This document shows positions 5,074 to 14,800 of a stretch of 64,000 nt of DNA, in pieces. Origin of the DNA: Sphingobacteriales bacterium 46-32 (lineage in GTDB: Bacteria > Bacteroidota > Bacteroidia > Chitinophagales > Chitinophagaceae); assembly GCA_001898485.1 (NCBI GenBank), contig MKTY01000019.1, positions 62,001-126,000 on the forward strand. The letters run 5' to 3'. Within the stretch, counting starts at the first letter, position 1, and each line of letters begins with the position of its first letter. A model generated the notes under the pieces. The model made no database searches, had not been told where the DNA came from, and saw nothing but the letters and a program-made list of their open reading frames with translations. The translations under genes and the position numbers were made by a program.

Positions 5074-5535
5074 TCATGTTGCAGATGGAAAATTGTTTTC
5101 TATGTTTTTTAAACGCTGATTATAATTACGCACAAGGTCATATGCGCCCAGCATCAGCAGGCATACGCTGGCCGTGATGCCAAGAGCCATTTCGAGGCCG
5201 GGCAATCCGGAAAACAGCTCGTTTAGCTGGCTACGGAAAACATAACCCATGGTGGCACCAGCAGGTGCAATGACCAGCAAAGGCAGCCAAAGCCACCATT
5301 TGTCGGTACGATGCTCTTTTACAACCGGTATTTTTTCCATTACCAGCGCCTCCACATCGAATGAAAAATGCGGTTCAGGTAATAACTTCAGTTCTCCAAA
5401 CAATGTGGTGTAGGCGGTCACCTGAGCAGCGCATTGTGCGCAGCTTTTCAGATGGGCTTCTTCTTCCGGCAGCAACTGTACTGACTGGCTGGCCAGCAGT
5501 TGCAATGTCTGATCGGAAAGATGTAGCTGATTCAT
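5074..5535 (-). CDS. Anti-sigma factor with zinc-binding (ZAS-like) motif
   Basis: 153 residues. Near the N-terminus it carries H28-x3-C32-x2-C35, the zinc-binding anti-sigma motif that grips region 2 of ECF sigma factors. Two hydrophobic segments follow (about 82-101 and 114-136), so it is an inner-membrane anti-sigma factor. Its start codon overlaps the sigma gene stop in the arrangement ATGA, a sign of translational coupling and fixed stoichiometry. It presumably holds the partner sigma factor at the membrane until a signal arrives. Confidence 0.85.
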   Translation of the reverse strand: MNQLHLSDQTLQLLASQSVQLLPEEEAHLKSCAQCAAQVTAYTTLFGELKLLPEPHFSFDVEALVMEKIPVVKEHRTDKWWLWLPLLVIAPAGATMGYVFRSQLNELFSGLPGLEMALGITASVCLLMLGAYDLVRNYNQRLKNIENNFPSAT

Positions 5536-6128
5536 AAATCCCCTTTTTTATGCAGGTGAAGTAATCGGGTTTGTAATTGCCGGCGGGCACGAAACAGGTA
5601 ATTTTTTACCGTGCCTTCCGGCAAATTGGTAATGGTACAGATCTCTGCATAACTCAGCTCCTGCTGATGGTAAAGGCTTACGAGGGTACGCTGTACAGGT
5701 GGTAATTCCTGCATACAGCTTTCCAGTAAAGCCGCTCTGTCTTTCTGCACCATCATTTTTTCAATACTGCCTTCATCGGCTGCACTGGGCAATAGAGGAT
5801 GTTCTTCTTCCTGGTTTTCCAGCAGGTCGCCGGCCAGTACCAGTTTTTTCTTACGCAGGTAATCAAAACAGGTGTTGTAGCTTATCTGAGCGATCCATGT
5901 TGAAAGGCGTGCCTGAAAGCGGAATCCCCCCAGGCTACGATAGGCTTTCAGATAAATTTCCTGCGCCAGGTCAGGATGATCCTCTTTGCGGGTGATCATT
6001 TTGCCTACAATTTGTGCCACCAGTCTTTCTGTGCGTTGCACAACGAGCCGAAAAGCCTGGGAGTCGCCGCCCAGAATCCTGTCAACCAGTTGTAAATCAG
6101 AAAGTAAATGGAGGTCGCTTGGTTTCAC
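5532..6128 (-). CDS. ECF RNA polymerase sigma factor (sigma-70 family)
   Basis: 198 residues. Region 2 (about 25-95) includes the core-binding and -10 helix LAQEIYLKAYRSLGGFR and STWIAQISYNTCFDYLRKKK. Region 4 (about 140-190) has the helix-turn-helix LPPVQRTLVSLYHQQELSYAEI and NLPEGTVKNYLFRARRQL. Sigma-70 domains 1.1 and 3 are absent, which defines the ECF group. It is the first gene of a three-gene operon with the anti-sigma factor and a small membrane protein. Its regulon cannot be told from this window. Confidence 0.93.
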   Translation of the reverse strand: MKPSDLHLLSDLQLVDRILGGDSQAFRLVVQRTERLVAQIVGKMITRKEDHPDLAQEIYLKAYRSLGGFRFQARLSTWIAQISYNTCFDYLRKKKLVLAGDLLENQEEEHPLLPSAADEGSIEKMMVQKDRAALLESCMQELPPVQRTLVSLYHQQELSYAEICTITNLPEGTVKNYLFRARRQLQTRLLHLHKKGDL

Positions 6129-6263: not shown

Positions 6264-7133
6264 ATGACTGCCACAGCCCCTTTACTGGAACTGCCGCATG
6301 CACCGGTGCAGGTACCGTTTGAGATCCATAGTATGGACTGGATTGATCAGAACCGCCGCGGGCAGAATGAGCTGCCGCACCGGCATAATTATTTTGTCAT
6401 TATCTGGTTCAAAAAAGGTCAGGGTACACACCTGATCGACCTTGATGCCATACCGCTCGAAGAGCAGACCGTTTACTGCATTACACCCGGTCAGATACAC
6501 CTGCTCACCCAGGAAGGCAGTGCAGAGGGCTATGTAATCTCTTTTACGGCCGATTTTCTGGGTAGTGCGCAGGGCGATTTTGATCTGCTGTTTAACACAG
6601 GTCTTTTTTATGCGTTTGCAGAAAAACCCTATTTGCATTTACCGCCGGAGTTGCAGGAAGAGCTGGAAGAAATGGCCGTTAAAATGATGAAAGAATATGC
6701 CAACTTCTATTTGCTGCGGGCAGAAATATTGCGGGGCTTTCTGCGCATTTTCCTGATTTATCTGACCCGGGGCTTTGAGCGACCGGCCGTTACAGAAGCC
6801 CAGAGCAAAGGAGTAGACCTGGTAAAACGCTTCCTGGCGCTGGTAGAAAAGAATTATATCAGCAAACGTATGGTAGCCGACTATGCGGCTGAGCTGGCTG
6901 TAACGCCCAATTATCTGAATGAGGTTGTAAAAAAAGTATCCGGTTTTCCGGCCAGCCATCACATACAGCAGCGAATCATACTGGAAGCCAAGCGGCAGGC
7001 CACTTACAGCAGCGCCAGCCTCAAAGAAATTGCTTATAGCCTCGGATTCGATGACCTGGCACATTTCAGTAAATTCTTCAAAAACGTATCGGGCCAGAGC
7101 TTTACCGACTTCCGGAAAACACAGGCCAGCTGA
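6264..7133 (+). CDS. AraC-family transcriptional regulator
   Basis: 289 residues. The N-terminal half is a cupin-like sensing domain (LPHRHNYFVIIWFKKGQGTHLIDLD and ITPGQIHLL). The C-terminal 95 residues form the double helix-turn-helix of AraC/XylS proteins, with AELAVTPNYLNEVVKKVSGFPASHHI as the first and LKEIAYSLGFDDLAHFSKFFKNVSGQSFTDFR as the second. The gene lies directly upstream of, and in the same direction as, the hydrolase-transporter cluster beginning at 7258. It is a natural candidate regulator of that cluster; the co-inducer is unknown. AraC proteins usually bind direct repeats, so the perfect palindrome downstream might belong to another regulator. Confidence 0.92.
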   Translation: MTATAPLLELPHAPVQVPFEIHSMDWIDQNRRGQNELPHRHNYFVIIWFKKGQGTHLIDLDAIPLEEQTVYCITPGQIHLLTQEGSAEGYVISFTADFLGSAQGDFDLLFNTGLFYAFAEKPYLHLPPELQEELEEMAVKMMKEYANFYLLRAEILRGFLRIFLIYLTRGFERPAVTEAQSKGVDLVKRFLALVEKNYISKRMVADYAAELAVTPNYLNEVVKKVSGFPASHHIQQRIILEAKRQATYSSASLKEIAYSLGFDDLAHFSKFFKNVSGQSFTDFRKTQAS

Positions 7134-7178
7134 TCTCTCTTTTTACAGATTCCATGATATGTACTACACTAACCTGAA

Positions 7179-7217
7179 TCCGTCAATTGACGGAGGGTAG
7201 CTGTGTGAATAGTTTTG
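7179..7217 (+). promoter_or_regulatory. Promoter with a perfect palindrome over the -33 element, upstream of the hydrolase cluster
   Basis: TCCGTCAATTGACGGA (7179-7194) is a 16-bp perfect palindrome. Its central TTG (7187-7189) is followed by 20 bases and then TAGTTTTG (7210-7217), a perfect TAnnTTTG -7 box. Transcription would begin near 7223, 35 bases before the ATG at 7258. The palindrome therefore covers the -33 contact, the normal place for a repressor operator. A second, weaker inverted repeat (TTGTCCTG at 7215-7222, CAGGACAA at 7251-7258) brackets the leader. Confidence 0.65.
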
Positions 7218-7257
7218 TCCTGTCAAATTAATCAACTAACAATAAAACTTCAGGACA

Positions 7258-7959
7258 ATGAAAACACTCACTCAAAAAATGATGGCGCTGCTTGTTGCCA
7301 CCCTTACTGTATTTGCTGTAAATGCACAGAAACCTTCACCGGAATTGCTGAGTCCAACCAATCATGCACTGGTACTGATCGACCATGAAAGCCAGATGGC
7401 CTTTGCTGTAAAAAATATTGAAACAAATGAGCTGCGCAACAATACAGCTATAGTTGCAGGCGCTTCTAAAATATTCAAAGTGCCCACGGTGGTAACAACA
7501 GTAGCTGAAAAATCTTTCAGTGGGCCTGTTTTTGCCGAGATTTCAGAATTCTATCCGCAAAGCACCAGCAATTATATCGACCGCACTACGATGAATACCT
7601 GGGAAGATGTAAATGCGCATAAGGCTATTGTAGATAAAGGCAAAAAGAAAATCGTATTTGCCGGACTCTGGACAGGTGTATGTATTGTAGGCCCCGCGCT
7701 GAGTGCGATTGCAGAAGGTTATGAAGTGTATGTAATTACTGATGCAAGCGGTGATGTAAGCAAGGAAGCGCATGAGATGGCTGTTGCCCGTATGATACAG
7801 GCTGGTGTAAAACCCATGACGTCTATCCAGTACCTGCTTGAACTGCAGCGTGACTGGGCGCGCAGCGAAACCTACAAACCCGTTACAGATCTCGTTAAAA
7901 AATATGGCGGTGCTTATGGTATCGGTATCCAGTATGCCCATGAAATGCTGAAACACTAA
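7258..7959 (+). CDS. Exported isochorismatase-family hydrolase (YcaC-like)
   Basis: 233 residues with a signal peptide cleaved near residue 24 (FAVNAQ). The mature part is the isochorismatase-like Rossmann fold: catalytic Asp42 (LVLIDHESQMAF), nucleophile Cys142 (GLWTGVCIVGPALSAI) and the strand EVYVITDASG. At the place of the usual catalytic Lys there is Arg109, as in YcaC-like members. Family members hydrolyse amides, nicotinamide, isochorismate or similar small molecules; E. coli YcaC has no known substrate. A signal peptide is unusual, as most relatives are cytoplasmic. First gene of a run of seven, behind the palindromic promoter. Confidence 0.88.
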   Translation: MKTLTQKMMALLVATLTVFAVNAQKPSPELLSPTNHALVLIDHESQMAFAVKNIETNELRNNTAIVAGASKIFKVPTVVTTVAEKSFSGPVFAEISEFYPQSTSNYIDRTTMNTWEDVNAHKAIVDKGKKKIVFAGLWTGVCIVGPALSAIAEGYEVYVITDASGDVSKEAHEMAVARMIQAGVKPMTSIQYLLELQRDWARSETYKPVTDLVKKYGGAYGIGIQYAHEMLKH

Positions 7960-8022
7960 ATCATAATTCTCCTTTTCTCATACTGGGGCAGGCAAGCCTG
8001 CCCCTTTTTTAAATGATGCACG

Positions 8023-9789
8023 ATGAAAACGCTCAGATCAATAATGCTGATGCTGACAATGCTGCTGGTGACTATGATACAGGCGCAGACGAGGTCTGAT
8101 CTTATTATTGTCAATGCAAAGGTGCTTACTATGGATCCGGCCAATCCCCGGGCCGAAGCTGTGGTGGTAAGCAATCAGCAGATTGTATTTACAGGCAGTG
8201 TGCAGGCTGCCCTCAGACTGAAAAAGAAGCACACAAAAGTGATAGATGCCGGAGGGCGTACGCTGATCCCCGGTTTGTTTGATACACACCTGCATGTAAT
8301 ACGCGGTGGTCGTTTTTACAATACGGAACTTCGCTGGGATGGTGTACCTACACTTGCCCGCGCACTGACGATGCTGCGCGAGCAGGCGCAACGCACACCC
8401 AAAGGCCAATGGGTACGTGTGGTAGGAGGCTGGAATGAATACCAGTTTGCCGAGCGGCGTCTGCCTACCCTGCAGGAGATCAATGAGGCTACGGGTGATG
8501 TACCCACATTTATCCTGTATTTATATGGTAAAGCCTGGCTCAACAAAGCCGGACTGGCCCTGCTGGGCATTGATGGAAATTCTCCTAACCCACCCGGGGG
8601 ACTGATAGAGAAAGATGATGCCGGTAATGCAACCGGTCTGCTGGTAGCCGAGCCCAACGCATTTATCCTTTACAGCACACTGGCCAAACTGCCTGAACTG
8701 ACTACTGCAGAAAAGATCAACAGCACACTGCAGTATATGACAGAATTAAACAGGCTTGGAGTAACAGCTGTTATGGATGCCGGTGGCGGATTTCAGAATT
8801 TTCCCGACGATTATGCCATCACCGATTCGCTGAATAAACTGGGACAGATTACGGTGCGTCTTCCTTATTTTCTTTTTGCCCAGAAAAAAGGTACTGAACT
8901 AAGCGACTATCAGCGTTGGACAGGCATGGTTGACATAGAACATCACAGTACGCATGGTGTGGATTATGCCGTAGCAGGTGGCGGAGAAAACCTGGTGGCA
9001 GATGCGGCAGACTTTGAAAACTTCCTGTTTCCCCGTCCGGAGTTGCCTGCAAGCATGGAAAACAATCTTAAAGCGGTGATCTCTTTGCTGGTCCGGAAAC
9101 GCTGGCCTTTTCGTCTACACGCCACTTATAACGAAAGTATATCGCGCGATCTGGATGTGATTGAAGCAGTGAATCGCGAAACGCCCCTGAATGGATTGCT
9201 GTGGATTATTGATCATGCTGAAACGATAAGTGAAGAAAATATGAAACGGGTAAAAGCCCTGGGAGGAGCTATTGCCATTCAGCATCGTATGGCTTACCAG
9301 GGAGAAAGTTTTATACATCGCTATGGTAAAAAGGCTGCTGAGAATGCTCCACCTGTAAAAAGAATGATGGAGCTGGGAATACCTGTAGCACTTGGTACGG
9401 ATGGTACACGCGTAGCAAGTTATAATCCATGGGTGGCGTTTTACTGGTTCACTACCGGTAAAACAACCGGAGGCGCACAGGTGATGGCGGCAAACAATAC
9501 AATAGACCGGCTCACCGCATTGCGTTTGTTCACGACCGGCGGCTACGAATTGCTGCGCGAAAAAAATAAAGGAATGATACGGGCAGGTTACCTGGCAGAC
9601 CTCGTATTGCTCAACCAGGACCTGGAAACGATACCCGATGAGGCATTGCTGAAAATGCAGTCTGTGCTCACCCTCGTAGATGGGAAAATCGTATTCGGAC
9701 AGGCACCCTTTACCAAATGGGCACCGGCACCGCTGCCTGTAATACCTGCCTGGAGCCCGGTGGCGGTCTATGGCGGTTACCAGTACTGA
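8023..9789 (+). CDS. Exported amidohydrolase, YtcJ/amidohydrolase-3 type
   Basis: 588 residues with an N-terminal signal peptide ending near MIQAQ. The N-terminal beta-sandwich part (LIIVNAKVLTMDP) leads into the TIM barrel with the metal ligands HLH in LIPGLFDTHLHVI, further barrel motifs LHATYNE, WIIDHAETIS and LGTDGTRVASYNPW, and the closing ITVDGKIV-like strand (LTLVDGKIVFG). The family hydrolyses amide or imide bonds with one or two metal ions; N-substituted formamide deformylase is one characterised relative. The substrate here is unknown. Export puts the reaction in the periplasm together with the upstream hydrolase. Confidence 0.88.
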   Translation: MKTLRSIMLMLTMLLVTMIQAQTRSDLIIVNAKVLTMDPANPRAEAVVVSNQQIVFTGSVQAALRLKKKHTKVIDAGGRTLIPGLFDTHLHVIRGGRFYNTELRWDGVPTLARALTMLREQAQRTPKGQWVRVVGGWNEYQFAERRLPTLQEINEATGDVPTFILYLYGKAWLNKAGLALLGIDGNSPNPPGGLIEKDDAGNATGLLVAEPNAFILYSTLAKLPELTTAEKINSTLQYMTELNRLGVTAVMDAGGGFQNFPDDYAITDSLNKLGQITVRLPYFLFAQKKGTELSDYQRWTGMVDIEHHSTHGVDYAVAGGGENLVADAADFENFLFPRPELPASMENNLKAVISLLVRKRWPFRLHATYNESISRDLDVIEAVNRETPLNGLLWIIDHAETISEENMKRVKALGGAIAIQHRMAYQGESFIHRYGKKAAENAPPVKRMMELGIPVALGTDGTRVASYNPWVAFYWFTTGKTTGGAQVMAANNTIDRLTALRLFTTGGYELLREKNKGMIRAGYLADLVLLNQDLETIPDEALLKMQSVLTLVDGKIVFGQAPFTKWAPAPLPVIPAWSPVAVYGGYQY

Positions 9790-9821
9790 AACAATGATTA
9801 CATACAAGCGAATAAGTGTTT

Positions 9822-10256
9822 ATGAAAAAATATCTTAACCTGCTAAGTACTCCTTATCCAGCAGCATGGGTATATCATGTTTCGTTGCTGTTTTTCAGAG
9901 TGCTTGTGTCGCTTCAACTGATGATAGTACACGGTTTAAAAAAGATAGGGATAGGTGTGGCGGAAGCAGAGCAGGTACCCAATCCACTACATCTGCCAGA
10001 AGGTTTCAATCACCTGTTTGCTATAGCCGGCAACCTGGTATTCCCTGTTTTTATCATCATCGGGTTTTTGACCAGACTGGCCGTATGGCCGGTACTCGCC
10101 ATTACCCTCACCGGATATTTTGTATTACATTGGCATGACCCGCTACTGGTAAGCGACACACCATTTATCTACAGTGTGGTCTTTTTACTGATAGCTGTGC
10201 TGGGAGCGGGTAAGTATTCAATAGATTACTGGTTATATCAAAAAACACGCTTATGA
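9822..10256 (+). CDS. DoxX-family membrane protein
   Basis: 144 residues from the ATG at 9822; an in-frame GTG six bases earlier is a weaker choice. It has four hydrophobic helices and the DoxX pattern (FFRVLVSLQLMIVHGLKKIG, GNLVFPVFIIIGFLTRLA, HWHDPLL). DoxX proteins are four-helix membrane proteins linked to quinone or redox functions in some bacteria, but most members have no known role. It sits 32 bases after the amidohydrolase and overlaps the next gene by four bases (ATGA), so it is part of the same operon. Confidence 0.82.
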   Translation: MKKYLNLLSTPYPAAWVYHVSLLFFRVLVSLQLMIVHGLKKIGIGVAEAEQVPNPLHLPEGFNHLFAIAGNLVFPVFIIIGFLTRLAVWPVLAITLTGYFVLHWHDPLLVSDTPFIYSVVFLLIAVLGAGKYSIDYWLYQKTRL

Positions 10257-10693
10257 AACTGACCTGGATCATTGTAGCCCTTGTATCGGGAGCGGTATTG
10301 CCGCTGCAGGCCGGATTGAATGCACGCCTTGGTCGTGCAGCTGCCAATCCCATTTATGCTTCACTCATTTCTTTTGTAATCGGCACACTGGCATTGTTGC
10401 TGTATGTAATCTTTTCGCGGCAATCTGTGTCCTGGCAGGGACTGCGTGAAGCTCCTGCATATGTATGGCTGGGTGGATTACTGGGCGCATTTTATGTAAC
10501 GGCTATCGTACTTGCATTTCCGCAAATTGGTCCTGCACTTACGTTTGGTCTTGTAGTGGCCGGCCAGATGCTCATTGCGCTGCTGCTGGACCATTTCAGT
10601 ATACTGGTAGCAAACCCGCATCCGGTCAATATATGGCGTGTGCTGGGCGTGCTCATGATTGTGGGAGGCGTGGTGCTGATCCGCAAATTCTGA
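10253..10693 (+). CDS. YdcZ/DUF606-type DMT-superfamily transporter
   Basis: 146 residues, almost entirely hydrophobic, with five predicted helices. The opening LVSGAVLPLQAGLNARLGRAAANPIYASLISFVIG is split here as LPLQAGLNARLGRAA and PIYASLISFVIGTLAL, the signature of the YdcZ (DUF606) family. These are half-size drug/metabolite transporters thought to dimerise, with unknown cargo. The start overlaps the DoxX stop by four bases. In this cluster it could move the product of the periplasmic hydrolases across the inner membrane; that is inference. Confidence 0.85.
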   Translation: MKLTWIIVALVSGAVLPLQAGLNARLGRAAANPIYASLISFVIGTLALLLYVIFSRQSVSWQGLREAPAYVWLGGLLGAFYVTAIVLAFPQIGPALTFGLVVAGQMLIALLLDHFSILVANPHPVNIWRVLGVLMIVGGVVLIRKF

Positions 10694-10696
10694 TGT

Positions 10697-12061
10697 ATGA
10701 GAAAAGTCTTCTTCATAATATTTCTTCAATGCCTGTGTTTTTTAGCGCAGACACAACCGGCTGTTACTTTCCGTCCGTTGCGCTATGAAGAAGATTATTC
10801 TTCACTGAGCAATGACAGTATCCGGAAAAAGTACCCCGCATTCAAGTACATAACTCTTTCTCGGCAGAAACCGGCCTATATGAGTGTAGGTGGAGATCTC
10901 CGGGCGCAGTATTTCTATAGCAAACATGAAAACTGGGGACTTGAGTCAAATCATGCATATCAGTATGGATTGACAAGGGCATTGCTGCATGCAGACATTC
11001 ATAATGGCGCATGGCGTGCATTTGTGCAACTGCAAAGTAGTGTGGCTATTGACCGGCCTGACCCGTCGCCGGTAGATCAAAACCCACTCGATGTGCACCA
11101 GGTATTTGCGGAGTATCGTTGGGGCGATCATAAAGCATGGATGATAAGGGCTGGTCGGCAGGAGCTGATGCTGGGCTCGCAACGATTGGTGAGTGTGCGT
11201 GAAGGTCCTAACAACCGGCAGGCTTTTGATGGAATGCGATTGCAGTGGCGTGACCAACGCCACCTGGTCGATTTTTTATATACACATTGGGTCGCTTCTA
11301 AAAAAGGATGGTTTGATGATGCTCCGGGAAATAATGCCAGGCTTTGGGGAGTGTATGCTGTTTTTAATCAGTTTCCGCTGATAGCGAATGCTGACTTTTA
11401 TTATCTCGGATTATGGAAAAAGAAAGCCGTATTTGAAGATGCAGCCGGAGAGGAGCTACGCCATTCCTGGGGTACGCGTGTCTGGAAAAAAACGGGTAGC
11501 TGGCAATATGATTTTGAAGCCGTGTATCAACTGGGTAGTATAAATGGTAAGCAAATAAATGCATGGACCGGTTCCCTGCACCTGTTGCATCAATGGCTGC
11601 ACTGGAAGGGGAAACCAGAACTGGCATTGAAGACGGAATGGATCAGTGGCGATCGCCATAACGGAGATGACAGGTTGCAGACGTTTAATCCACTTTTTCC
11701 CCGCGGTGCTTATTTTGGACTGGCAGCCCTTATTGGTCCGGCCAACCTGGTAGACCTGCATCCGTCCATTTCCTATCATCTGCATCCGCACTGGGAGCTT
11801 AATGCAGATTACGATTTGTTTTGGCGGTACAGCCGCCGCGATGGATTATATGGTCCCAATGGAGCTTTATTTTATGAAGGCAAACAATATTTCAATAAAT
11901 TTATCGGCGGGCAGCTTGCAGGAAGCCTGGTCTTTACTCCTTACCCTGCTTTTTCCCTGCAGGGCGAGTTTACCTGGTTTTATGCCGGCAGCTTTCTGAA
12001 AGAATCGGGTGCAGACAAAAACCTGATCTTTACAGGTCTCACCACTCAGTTCAGATTTTAA
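10697..12061 (+). CDS. Alginate-export-type outer-membrane beta-barrel
   Basis: 454 residues with a signal peptide ending near FLAQTQ. The chain shows the alginate-export (AlgE/porin) family pattern: FKYITLSRQKPAYMSVGGDLR, a QVFAEYRW and RAGRQELMLGSQRLVS strand pair, FDGMRLQWR, and a C-terminal strand ending in FRF. The family forms a monomeric 18-strand barrel; most Bacteroidota members are not linked to alginate and serve as general or substrate-selective pores. It starts four bases after the transporter gene, so the cluster encodes an outer-membrane pore, exported hydrolases and an inner-membrane carrier together. Confidence 0.85.
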   Translation: MRKVFFIIFLQCLCFLAQTQPAVTFRPLRYEEDYSSLSNDSIRKKYPAFKYITLSRQKPAYMSVGGDLRAQYFYSKHENWGLESNHAYQYGLTRALLHADIHNGAWRAFVQLQSSVAIDRPDPSPVDQNPLDVHQVFAEYRWGDHKAWMIRAGRQELMLGSQRLVSVREGPNNRQAFDGMRLQWRDQRHLVDFLYTHWVASKKGWFDDAPGNNARLWGVYAVFNQFPLIANADFYYLGLWKKKAVFEDAAGEELRHSWGTRVWKKTGSWQYDFEAVYQLGSINGKQINAWTGSLHLLHQWLHWKGKPELALKTEWISGDRHNGDDRLQTFNPLFPRGAYFGLAALIGPANLVDLHPSISYHLHPHWELNADYDLFWRYSRRDGLYGPNGALFYEGKQYFNKFIGGQLAGSLVFTPYPAFSLQGEFTWFYAGSFLKESGADKNLIFTGLTTQFRF

Positions 12062-12079
12062 ACCATTAAATAGTTTAAT

Positions 12080-12553
12080 ATGGAACCACGTATTGGCATC
12101 AAAGCAGAAAACCTCAAACAGGTAGCGCATATTCTCAATGGTGTGCTGGCAGATGAGTTTGTACTTTACACTAAAACCCGCAATGCGCACTGGAATGTGG
12201 AAGGGCCCGACTTTCACGACAAGCATAAATTTTTTGAAGGGCAGTATGAGCAACTTGACGATATGATGGACGATGTGGCGGAGCGTATCCGTGTGCTGGG
12301 ACATTATGCGCCAGCAACATTGAAAGCCTATCTCGAACTGACTCATTTATCGGAGCAGTCTGGCTCACCTAATACCAGTATGGGTTTTATTAAAGAACTC
12401 CTGGGTGATCATGAAAGTATTATTGAAAGGCTGCGGGAGCATATCAACCAGTTTGCTAACGAGTACCAGGACCTCGGTACCAGCGATTTTATAACCGGGC
12501 TGATGGAGGCGCATGAAAAAATGGCCTGGATGCTGCGGGCGCATCTGCGCTAG
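12080..12553 (+). CDS. dps: Dps-family ferritin-like DNA-protection protein
   Basis: 157 residues. The Dps signature is complete: NAHWNVEGPDFHDKHKFFE and LDDMMDDVAERIRVLG, providing the inter-subunit ferroxidase ligands His37, His49, Glu53, Asp64 and Glu68 by comparison with known Dps proteins. Dps assembles as a 12-mer that oxidises Fe(II) with hydrogen peroxide and stores the iron. The N-terminal lysine tail of E. coli Dps is missing, so DNA binding is uncertain. It follows the porin gene by 18 bases and may be co-transcribed with the cluster. Confidence 0.92.
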   Translation: MEPRIGIKAENLKQVAHILNGVLADEFVLYTKTRNAHWNVEGPDFHDKHKFFEGQYEQLDDMMDDVAERIRVLGHYAPATLKAYLELTHLSEQSGSPNTSMGFIKELLGDHESIIERLREHINQFANEYQDLGTSDFITGLMEAHEKMAWMLRAHLR

Positions 12554-12586
12554 AAAGCCACTGTATATTTAGTTGTATATATTAAT

Positions 12587-13147
12587 ATGGAAAAAAAAGG
12601 CGAACAAAGCAGTTGGGTAATTGATCCTGTACATACCCGCATCCGGTTTGAAGCAAAATATCTTCTTATCACATCGGTTTCGGGCTGGTTTCGTGAGCTG
12701 GAAGGTACGGTAAGCACAGAGCATGACAATTTTGACGGTTGTCAGATAGCGCTTACTATCTATACCAGCTCACTGTATACCGGTATCGAGGAGCGGGACA
12801 ATCATCTGCGCTCACCTGATTTTTTTGATACGCTGAAGTACCCCACTATCGAGTTTCGGTCTGCTTCGGTAAAGGTGCAGAACGACGGTATTGAGGTAGC
12901 CGGACGGCTGAGTATCAAGGATGCCAGCCAGGATATCCGTTTTCTGGCCAGGTACCTGGGTACTGTACAGGATCCTATGGGCAATACCAAAGCAGGGTTT
13001 GAAATGAATACCGTTTTTGATCGTAAAGCCTTTAATATCAACTGGAACCAGTATTTTGACAAACAGGGTGTGCTGCTGTCTGACGAAGTAGCTATCCATT
13101 GCGACCTGCAGTTGCTAAAACTGGAGCCGGTTGCAGCTGGTAATTAA
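12587..13147 (+). CDS. YceI-family lipid-binding protein
   Basis: 186 residues. The N-terminus WVIDPVHTRIRFEAKYLLITSVSGWF, read in two parts as WVIDPVHTRIRFEAKY and LLITSVSGWF, is the hallmark of YceI, followed by LRSPDFFDTLKYPTIEF and AGRLSIKDASQDI. YceI proteins form a lipocalin-like barrel that holds polyisoprenoids. Unlike E. coli YceI this protein has no signal peptide, so it is probably cytoplasmic. It lies 33 bases after dps and ends the co-directional run. Confidence 0.9.
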   Translation: MEKKGEQSSWVIDPVHTRIRFEAKYLLITSVSGWFRELEGTVSTEHDNFDGCQIALTIYTSSLYTGIEERDNHLRSPDFFDTLKYPTIEFRSASVKVQNDGIEVAGRLSIKDASQDIRFLARYLGTVQDPMGNTKAGFEMNTVFDRKAFNINWNQYFDKQGVLLSDEVAIHCDLQLLKLEPVAAGN

Positions 13148-13318: not shown

Positions 13319-14800
13319 ATGAAAACAGAGATATACCAACCGGAGAAGACCGACAGGAAGGAGGATCTCGACATCCTGGAGCAAACGGTGCTAAATGAGT
13401 ACAAGTATGGGTTTGTCACCGATATAGAAGCCGATGAGGCCCCCAAAGGACTGAGTGAAGATATTGTTCGCTTTATTTCTGCCAAAAAAAATGAACCGGA
13501 ATGGATGCTTGACTGGCGCCTGAAAGCCTTTCGCCAGTGGCAAAAAATGACTGAACCCAACTGGGCCAATGTCACATTTCCTCCGGTAAATTATCAGGAC
13601 ATTATTTATTATTCTGCTCCCAAGCAAAAGATAAAACCGAATAGTCTCGATGAGATCGATCCCGAGTTGCGCCGCACTTTCGAAAAACTGGGTATTTCGC
13701 TCGAAGAGCAAAAACGGTTGACAGGAGTGGCTGTGGATGCGGTTATTGACAGCGTATCTATCGGCACCACGTTTAAGAAACAACTGGCTGAGCTGGGTAT
13801 TATTTTCTGCTCCATGAGCGAAGCGATCCAGGAGCATCCTGAGCTGATCCGTCAGTACCTGGGCTCGGTAGTGCCTGTAACAGACAATTATTTCGTAGCG
13901 CTCAACTCTGCTGTATTCAGCGATGGTTCTTTCTGTTTCATTCCAAAGGGTGTTCGCTGCCCCATGGAGCTTTCTACCTATTTCCGCATCAATGCCGAGA
14001 ATACCGGTCAGTTTGAGCGTACCCTTATTGTTGCGGAAGATAACAGCTATGTGAGTTACCTCGAGGGTTGTACAGCTCCCATGCGCGACGAGAATCAGCT
14101 GCATGCAGCGGTAGTTGAACTGGTGGCGCTGGAGCATGCAGAGATCAAATACAGTACTGTGCAGAACTGGTATCCCGGTGATAAGGACGGTAAAGGCGGT
14201 ATCTACAATTTTGTAACCAAGCGTGGTATCTGCAAAGGCGATCACTCCAAAATATCCTGGACACAGGTAGAAACCGGTTCAGCGATCACCTGGAAATATC
14301 CCAGTGTGATCCTGAAAGGTGATCACTCGGTAGGTGAATTTTATTCAGTGGCAGTGACCAATCACCATCAGCAGGCCGATACCGGTACCAAGATGATGCA
14401 TGTGGGTAAAAATACCCGCAGCCGTATTGTATCGAAAGGTATTTCTGCTGGCCGCAGCAACAATAGTTACCGTGGTCTTGTGCAGGTAGGCCGTAATGCT
14501 GACAAGGCGCGCAATTTCTCTCAATGCGATTCATTGCTGCTGGGCGATAAATGCGGTGCACATACTTTCCCTTATATAGAAGTAAAAAACAATACCGCTG
14601 TAGTAGAGCATGAAGCCACCACGTCCAAAATTGGCGAAGACCAGATATTCTACTGCAACCAGCGTGGTATCGATACGGAAACAGCCGTAGCACTTATCAT
14701 CAACGGTTTTGCCAAAGAGGTGATGAACCAGTTGCCGATGGAGTTTGCCGTAGAAGCACAGAAACTGCTTGCCATCAGCCTGGAAGGAAGCGTGGGCTAA
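13319..14800 (+). CDS. sufB: Fe-S cluster scaffold protein SufB
   Basis: 493 residues, the usual SufB length. Family landmarks are [25 protein letters not shown] (in two parts, [15 protein letters not shown] and [13 protein letters not shown]), the beta-helix core, and the C-terminal [21 protein letters not shown] region with the conserved Cys and Glu used for cluster assembly. SufB forms the SufBC2D complex in which nascent Fe-S clusters are built. It is the first gene of sufBCDSE; the only in-frame ATG before residue 60 is the one chosen here. Confidence 0.96.

Follow-up and report, generated by a model that had tools for sequence, protein, structure and literature searches.

What do a YcaC-like cysteine hydrolase and a YtcJ-like metal-dependent hydrolase accomplish when they are encoded side by side and both are predicted to be exported? 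The question is raised by a locus at positions 6264–13147 of the window, the 64,000-nucleotide stretch of Sphingobacteriales bacterium 46-32 DNA (contig MKTY01000019.1, positions 62,001–126,000) that was analyzed. An earlier note, made from the sequence alone, had placed the two enzymes with an AraC-family regulator, a DoxX-family protein, a YdcZ-type carrier, and an alginate-export-type porin in a path for the hydrolysis and uptake of amide-like compounds. We find that YcaC and YtcJ travel as a pair, with a pore and a carrier recurring alongside, and we tentatively interpret the locus as a conserved operon for detoxification under local regulation, the likeliest target of which would be an electrophile of the phenolic or quinone type, or else an N-acylated or N-formylated relative.

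Conservation and layout of the operon

Among 80 loci encoding YtcJ relatives, which were fetched from named genomes and represent 31 genus-level groups, 75 loci (28 groups) have YcaC and YtcJ together in a single run of genes on one strand. The porin is part of the same run at 67 loci (26 groups) and lies within 8 kb at 70 of the 80. DoxX shares the run at 30 loci (15 groups), YceI at 12 (11 groups), Dps at 7 (7 groups), and YdcZ at 6 (6 groups), with recurrence of YdcZ noted in 7 genus-level groups; Dps is found within 8 kb in 8 of the 31 groups (rough p = 2e-11). When 247 Bacteroidota genomes were drawn without bias, YtcJ was present in 9, YcaC in 10, and both in 9 (hypergeometric p = 1e-15); YtcJ lies at most 2.6 kb from every YcaC copy except one.

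The pair is also found in Pseudomonadota. YcaC adjoins YtcJ in Pantoea, Azospirillum, Sinorhizobium, Niveispirillum, Cupriavidus, and Klebsiella, and in 13 of 5,426 E. coli genomes. The Pseudomonadota and E. coli versions often add an XapX/DUF1427 protein, DoxX, and an MFS_3 carrier, and the Azospirillum cluster is followed by a porin that, like that of the window, is of the Alginate_exp type. Because the grouping is conserved across phyla, it is not due to chance, and the possibility that these genes never occur together elsewhere, which the earlier note had offered as its own refutation, can be set aside. The pair is patchily distributed among relatives of the window's own family, and searching the whole class with the cytoplasmic YtcJ described below gained few extra genomes.

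In the window, the six genes named at the outset all lie on the + strand in the order proposed, each backed by a profile search: the AraC-family regulator (6264–7133; HTH_18, 8e-19), the isochorismatase/YcaC-like hydrolase (7258–7959; 5.8e-25), the Amidohydro_3/YtcJ-like hydrolase (8023–9789; 2.6e-105), the DoxX-family membrane protein (9822–10256; 2.4e-10), the DMT_YdcZ inner-membrane carrier (10253–10693; 4.1e-42), and the Alginate_exp-type outer-membrane porin, which carries a signal peptide (10697–12061; 1e-54). Comparison with a relative (L001) favors ATG 9822 over the alternative GTG 9816 as the doxX start. Two members on the same strand, recognized as open reading frames and by profile search, had been overlooked: a Dps-type ferritin-like protein (12080–12553), 18 bp after the porin gene, and, 33 bp beyond it, a YceI-family lipocalin-like protein (12587–13147), encoded by the final gene. 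The unit that follows AraC is ycaC-ytcJ-doxX-ydcZ-porin-dps-yceI (7258–13147, seven genes), whereas the interval first given, 7179–12061, begins within the ycaC promoter region and omits AraC. Genes said to overlap or to be separated by a few bases do so at doxX/ydcZ (4-bp overlap) and ydcZ-porin (3 bp), but not at AraC-ycaC (124 bp), ycaC-ytcJ (63 bp), or ytcJ-doxX (26–32 bp).

SufB, at 13319, opens a separate Fe-S assembly (SUF) operon 171 bp after yceI, with its own promoter-like boxes in the gap. On the other side, an extracytoplasmic function (ECF) sigma factor gene (5532–6128) and a downstream probable anti-sigma gene, which together span 5074–6128, are divergent from AraC. The sigma factor was considered as a member of the system and rejected, as it is kept beside the unit in the closest relative only.

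Several variants of the cluster were seen among the mapped loci. A Desertivirga locus (L023:13-6409) has a tandem YcaC-porin-YcaC-porin arrangement ahead of YtcJ-DoxX, which suggests that YcaC and the porin also work as a pair. In about 20 loci, a lone Peptidase_M17 N-terminal domain adjoins the porin or YtcJ (L016:13874-14620, L107:12689-13405, and relatives), and the L016 copy is exported. An E. coli island (L133:8960-13088) carries YcaC-XapX-YtcJ-DoxX-WrbA amid insertion-sequence remnants.

The two enzymes, the porin, and their cellular location

The YcaC-like protein keeps active-site residues D42, R109, and C142 and the interface motif ELQRDW (E195–W200), all invariant or nearly so, and its AlphaFold model (pLDDT 90.7) best matches PDB entries 4wgf and 1yac. 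Its score against the NCBIfam YcaC equivalog NF041461, 143.3 bits, is below the curated cut-off of 310; the Asp-Arg-Cys active site, the ELxRDW motif, and the isochorismatase fold place it in the wider YcaC subfamily. It has these features in common with YcaC of E. coli (1YAC) and P. aeruginosa (4WGF), at ~31–33% identity over the core, and differs from them in its Sec signal peptide, its near-constant YtcJ partner, and the replacement of the P. aeruginosa active-site Ser59 by Val82. The P. aeruginosa YcaC cysteine reacts with electrophiles (PMC4519933). Amidases of the superfamily, including nicotinamidase, RutB, and gamma-lactamase, use an Asp-Lys-Cys triad, and YcaC proteins are without the lysine (PMC12553813). 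The window protein does not have this triad either: Asp108 aligns with Ala83 of E. coli YcaC, and the YcaC-type Arg109 comes next. Since the amidase lysine is absent, hydrolysis of amides by YcaC, as the earlier note had envisioned, is not to be assumed.

In the YtcJ-like protein, the metal-ligand residues H89, H91, E322, H366, H398, and D460 do not vary among 38 sequences that span two phyla, and E322 would act as the metal bridge. With these six residues and a score of 354 bits (cut-off 29.7), the protein belongs to Amidohydro_3. Its model (pLDDT 89.2) best matches 3igh and 3icj, both function-unassigned structures. The fold and the HxH-E-H-H-D ligand pattern are shared with 3ICJ/3IGH, with P. 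aeruginosa PA2699, and with the N-substituted formamide deformylase NfdA, but identity to the solved YtcJ-like structures is ~18%, and the window protein uses Sec rather than Tat; PA2699 is an exported Tat exoprotein (PMC4899797).

The porin matches the Pfam Alginate_exp profile with 186 bits (cut-off 25.2), and a sequence search found no solved structural relative. Although it shares family membership with AlgE-type alginate export porins (PF13372), it sits with hydrolases, and no alginate synthesis or export genes were found among the annotated neighbors in the window and the mapped loci, part of the neighbors being unprofiled. It is probably a small-molecule porin.

Where do the enzymes act? 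Signal peptides, called by a hydropathy heuristic and by reading of the sequence, are of the Sec type on the window YcaC, YtcJ, and porin and are conserved in relatives. Most Bacteroidota pairs have signal peptides on both enzymes, and in nearly all, the two enzymes are alike in being exported or cytoplasmic. The YcaC signal peptide, which had been called unusual, is so in comparison with E. coli or Pseudomonas YcaC, but is normal for the clade of the window; a chance feature or a mis-called start was considered and rejected, as the peptide is kept in nearly all members of the exported clade. The cytoplasmic version forms a second cluster in Flavobacterium-like and Chryseobacterium-like genomes, in which YcaC and YtcJ both begin at the mature core. 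Its order is YcaC-porin-M17N-YtcJ-DoxX-Dps-DUF1275-kinase-NtrC-type regulator, followed in several genomes by GNAT, MhqD, cupin, and dioxygenase genes. At seven of these loci (L107, L109, L111, L113, L114, L116, and L117), the cluster is beside a TPR histidine kinase and the NtrC-type regulator.

A strict rule of a common compartment for the two enzymes was rejected, since an export signal is found on YtcJ alone in several Alphaproteobacteria and in Cupriavidus. Mixed pairs that are not artifacts, two in Bacteroidota and four in Pseudomonadota, always have YtcJ as the exported partner and YcaC as the cytoplasmic one, never the reverse. Apparent reverse cases (L007, L030, and L051) proved to be artifacts, namely a signal without Lys/Arg, a truncated start, and cross-pairing; L049 also has a truncated start. 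This one-sided pattern, seen in few lineages, leads us to place YtcJ first, with YcaC acting after it. YcaC and YtcJ may then constitute an unrecognized two-enzyme pathway in at least two phyla, with YcaC processing the YtcJ product and the whole pathway lying in the periplasm in Bacteroidota, a proposal that we regard as possible but somewhat doubtful. What survives of the two-step periplasmic path in the earlier note is the pairing and the export of both enzymes; its extension to amide catabolism by uptake is weak.

Control of the operon

An alignment of eight upstream regions revealed an AraC-type site, ATGATATGTACTACACT, and after it a second sequence resembling a half-site, CGTCAATTG, on the + strand upstream of ycaC (7154–7170). 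Immediately beyond is a Bacteroidota-type promoter (7181–7217, + strand), with a −33 TTG within CCGTCAATTGACGG and a −7 box TAGTTTTG, the spacing and boxes of which are kept in 8 loci. Common to the window and seven relatives, at near-fixed spacing, are ATGATATGTACAAC, GTCAATTG at −33, and the same −7 box. The AraC-type site has one exact copy in the whole genome. The perfect palindrome at the −33 region was considered as the main operator and rejected, as only its GTCAATTG part, which overlaps the −33 box, is kept in relatives.

The AraC protein has a cupin-type sensor domain, and its nearest NCBIfam model is HpaA, far below the cut-off of that model. An orthologue (62–69%) is present in 5 of 6 genomes with the operator-like site and in 2 of 14 without it (Fisher p = 0.007), and AraC is the probable activator of the operon. 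In two other genomes, the operator core is also found right behind an AraC paralogue. One of these is a Saprospiraceae genome, in which the core precedes an operon (L144:1188-5224) with the order AraC, ATGATTTATACAAC site, cupin, two MhqO-type dioxygenases, and MhqD, the operator being of the same type as in the window. At about 35 other loci, mainly in Chryseobacterium and Flavobacterium, a 103-amino-acid receiver-like protein with no Pfam match (L018:7171-7482 and relatives) and then a Crp-type regulator are encoded upstream of the cluster.

Between ycaC and ytcJ, a strong predicted hairpin followed by a T-run forms an intrinsic terminator or attenuator (7985–8010, + strand). Such a hairpin and T-run occur in 34 of 76 ycaC-ytcJ gaps, where shuffled sequences would give 0.7, and in 11% of same-strand gaps elsewhere; the stems differ among the loci. 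No consensus promoter was found in any of the ycaC-ytcJ gaps examined, and at two Dyadobacter loci the ycaC and ytcJ frames overlap by four bases. Judged from these sequence features, the unit would be co-transcribed, likely from a single promoter with partial termination after ycaC, and the terminator probably sets the ratio of YcaC to YtcJ product.

Proposed detoxification and the competing explanations

What do the neighbors say about the substrate? Within 8 kb of the pair, YceI occurs in 11 genus-level groups, pirin in 10, an MhqO-type dioxygenase in 9, and an MhqD-type esterase in 4. The recurrent dioxygenase matches MhqO (3oaj, 1e-81) and 2,6-dichlorohydroquinone dioxygenase (4huz, 1e-50), and in the 247-genome draw a close homologue lies at most 12 kb from YcaC/YtcJ in 6 genomes. 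Relatives L003, L006, and L079 have both the dioxygenase and the esterase, and in the E. coli version the WrbA quinone oxidoreductase follows DoxX. Methylhydroquinone is a strong inducer of MhqE and MhqD in S. aureus (PMC6798810). The mhqRED/mhqPOD sets of Firmicutes have in common with the pair that an MhqO-type dioxygenase and an MhqD-type esterase also recur beside YcaC-YtcJ in several genera, but they are without YcaC, YtcJ, porin, and Dps, whereas the window operon, under an AraC-type regulator, has neither the quinone-sensing MarR-type repressor nor the dioxygenase and esterase. DoxX-type membrane proteins belong to mhq sets in B. subtilis. The genome of the window has an MhqO-MhqD pair of its own (L142:5480-9855), which is unlinked to the operon, and transcribed divergently from it are genes for a flavodoxin-fold reductase and for a Kef-type antiporter that carries a TrkA_N domain; such a reductase and antiporter are a typical electrophile-protection set (KefC/KefF).

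Because the pair often adjoins genes of the quinone or oxidative stress type, we favor a role at the cell envelope in removing some small molecule that is toxic, and the recurrence of DoxX, Dps, YceI, pirin, MhqO/MhqD, and WrbA points to phenol- or quinone-like electrophiles. The electrophile-reactive cysteine of P. aeruginosa YcaC, the standing of YcaC as a stress hub gene in E. coli (PMC9501238), and the operator shared with the Saprospiraceae MhqO/MhqD operon speak for the same reading. On this model, which we give somewhat less than an even chance, a toxic small molecule would be sensed, and AraC, acting at 7154–7190, would switch on the ycaC promoter. The compound would enter the periplasm, possibly via the porin, and be converted there by the metal-dependent YtcJ and then by the cysteine hydrolase YcaC. 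DoxX and the YdcZ carrier may deal with membrane redox stress and with export (or import) of the product, Dps and YceI would limit collateral oxidative damage, and the terminator after ycaC would give more YcaC than other products.

The same redox-type genes could also belong to a general envelope or oxidative stress operon, in which the hydrolases clear damaged cell constituents, such as oxidized lipid, quinone, or peptide fragments, and no outside compound is involved. Dps, YceI, DoxX, and pirin would all suit such a role, as would the AhpC/TSA peroxiredoxin and DsbA-like thioredoxin encoded nearby in relative L003, and E. coli YcaC is a stress hub gene upregulated under several stresses (PMC9501238). 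We nonetheless consider this rather unlikely, as a dedicated porin would be superfluous, and the patchy distribution within the family and the differing local regulators (AraC, Crp-type, and two-component) better fit an accessory trait.

A third explanation, in line with the earlier note, is a nutritional path in which an amide-like compound passes through the porin, undergoes two-step hydrolysis by YtcJ and YcaC in the periplasm, and yields a product that the carrier imports as a carbon or nitrogen source. A porin and an inner-membrane carrier do recur with the pair, including in Azospirillum; the YtcJ superfamily holds aminoacylases and the N-substituted formamide deformylase (PMC13081902); HpaA, the distant nearest match of the AraC sensor, is an aromatic-acid regulator; and alpha/beta hydrolases near 3-oxoadipate enol-lactonase are found nearby in relatives. 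However, the carriers come from exporter-type families: YdcZ is a putative exporter in Pfam, and the Pseudomonadota carrier is an MFS_3/EntS-like H+ antiporter type, which argues against the inner-membrane uptake of the earlier note. The missing amidase lysine of YcaC also tells against nutrition, genes for a ligase, a deaminase, or a central pathway are not among the recurrent neighbors, and Dps, YceI, DoxX, and WrbA are hard to fit into a catabolic path. Together with these four, the recurrent pirin and MhqO/MhqD-type genes speak against a purely nutritional role. We judge nutrition unlikely and detoxification roughly twice as probable, with low confidence in absolute terms.

Exporter-type carriers raise one further alternative, namely that YtcJ and YcaC inactivate an antimicrobial made by neighboring organisms, for instance a formylated, acylated, or lactam natural product, and that YdcZ or MFS carriers act as exporters. 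The EntS-like and H+-antiporter MFS carriers of Pseudomonadota, an RND efflux pair adjoining the Niveispirillum cluster, and carriage on plasmids and on the E. coli island are all compatible with this possibility, which we consider improbable: the neighboring genes are of the redox-stress type, the profile searches run found no resistance family at cut-off, and E. coli YcaC is without gamma-lactamase activity (PMC12553813).

Several observations weigh against detoxification of an electrophile. Within-genus linkage is partly inherited, so the loci are not independent. More than half of them lack DoxX, most lack Dps, most lack YceI, and MhqO/MhqD are linked in a minority of loci only; within 6264–13147 there is neither the MhqO dioxygenase nor the MhqD esterase that an MhqR-type operon would be expected to have. 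An extradiol dioxygenase with a C-C hydrolase, a carrier, and a porin could also fit catabolism, the role proposed for mhqPOD in Paenibacillus (PMC12673573). Finally, we know of no activity for E. coli YcaC.

The open-access literature searched (YcaC/isochorismatase with DoxX, pirin, YceI, YtcJ, or XapX; subscription journals fell largely outside its scope) held no description of the module, in keeping with the view of the earlier note that no system with this set has been described. Each component comes from a known family. What the papers searched do not appear to describe is the pairing of YcaC with YtcJ, the way in which it is kept across phyla, its two cellular locations, and how it is regulated. 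To our knowledge, YcaC still lacks a function, although its structure has been solved since the late 1990s. The family now gains a fixed partner in YtcJ, companions that hint at a chemical class, and a model operon with a clear promoter. Exported and cytoplasmic versions of the pathway can be compared within one organism, and the functions of YcaC, the YtcJ-type hydrolase, and DoxX become directly testable in culturable Flavobacterium, of which F. johnsoniae carries the clade, or Chryseobacterium. If the two-enzyme pathway is true, it would be the first physiological function for the YcaC family.

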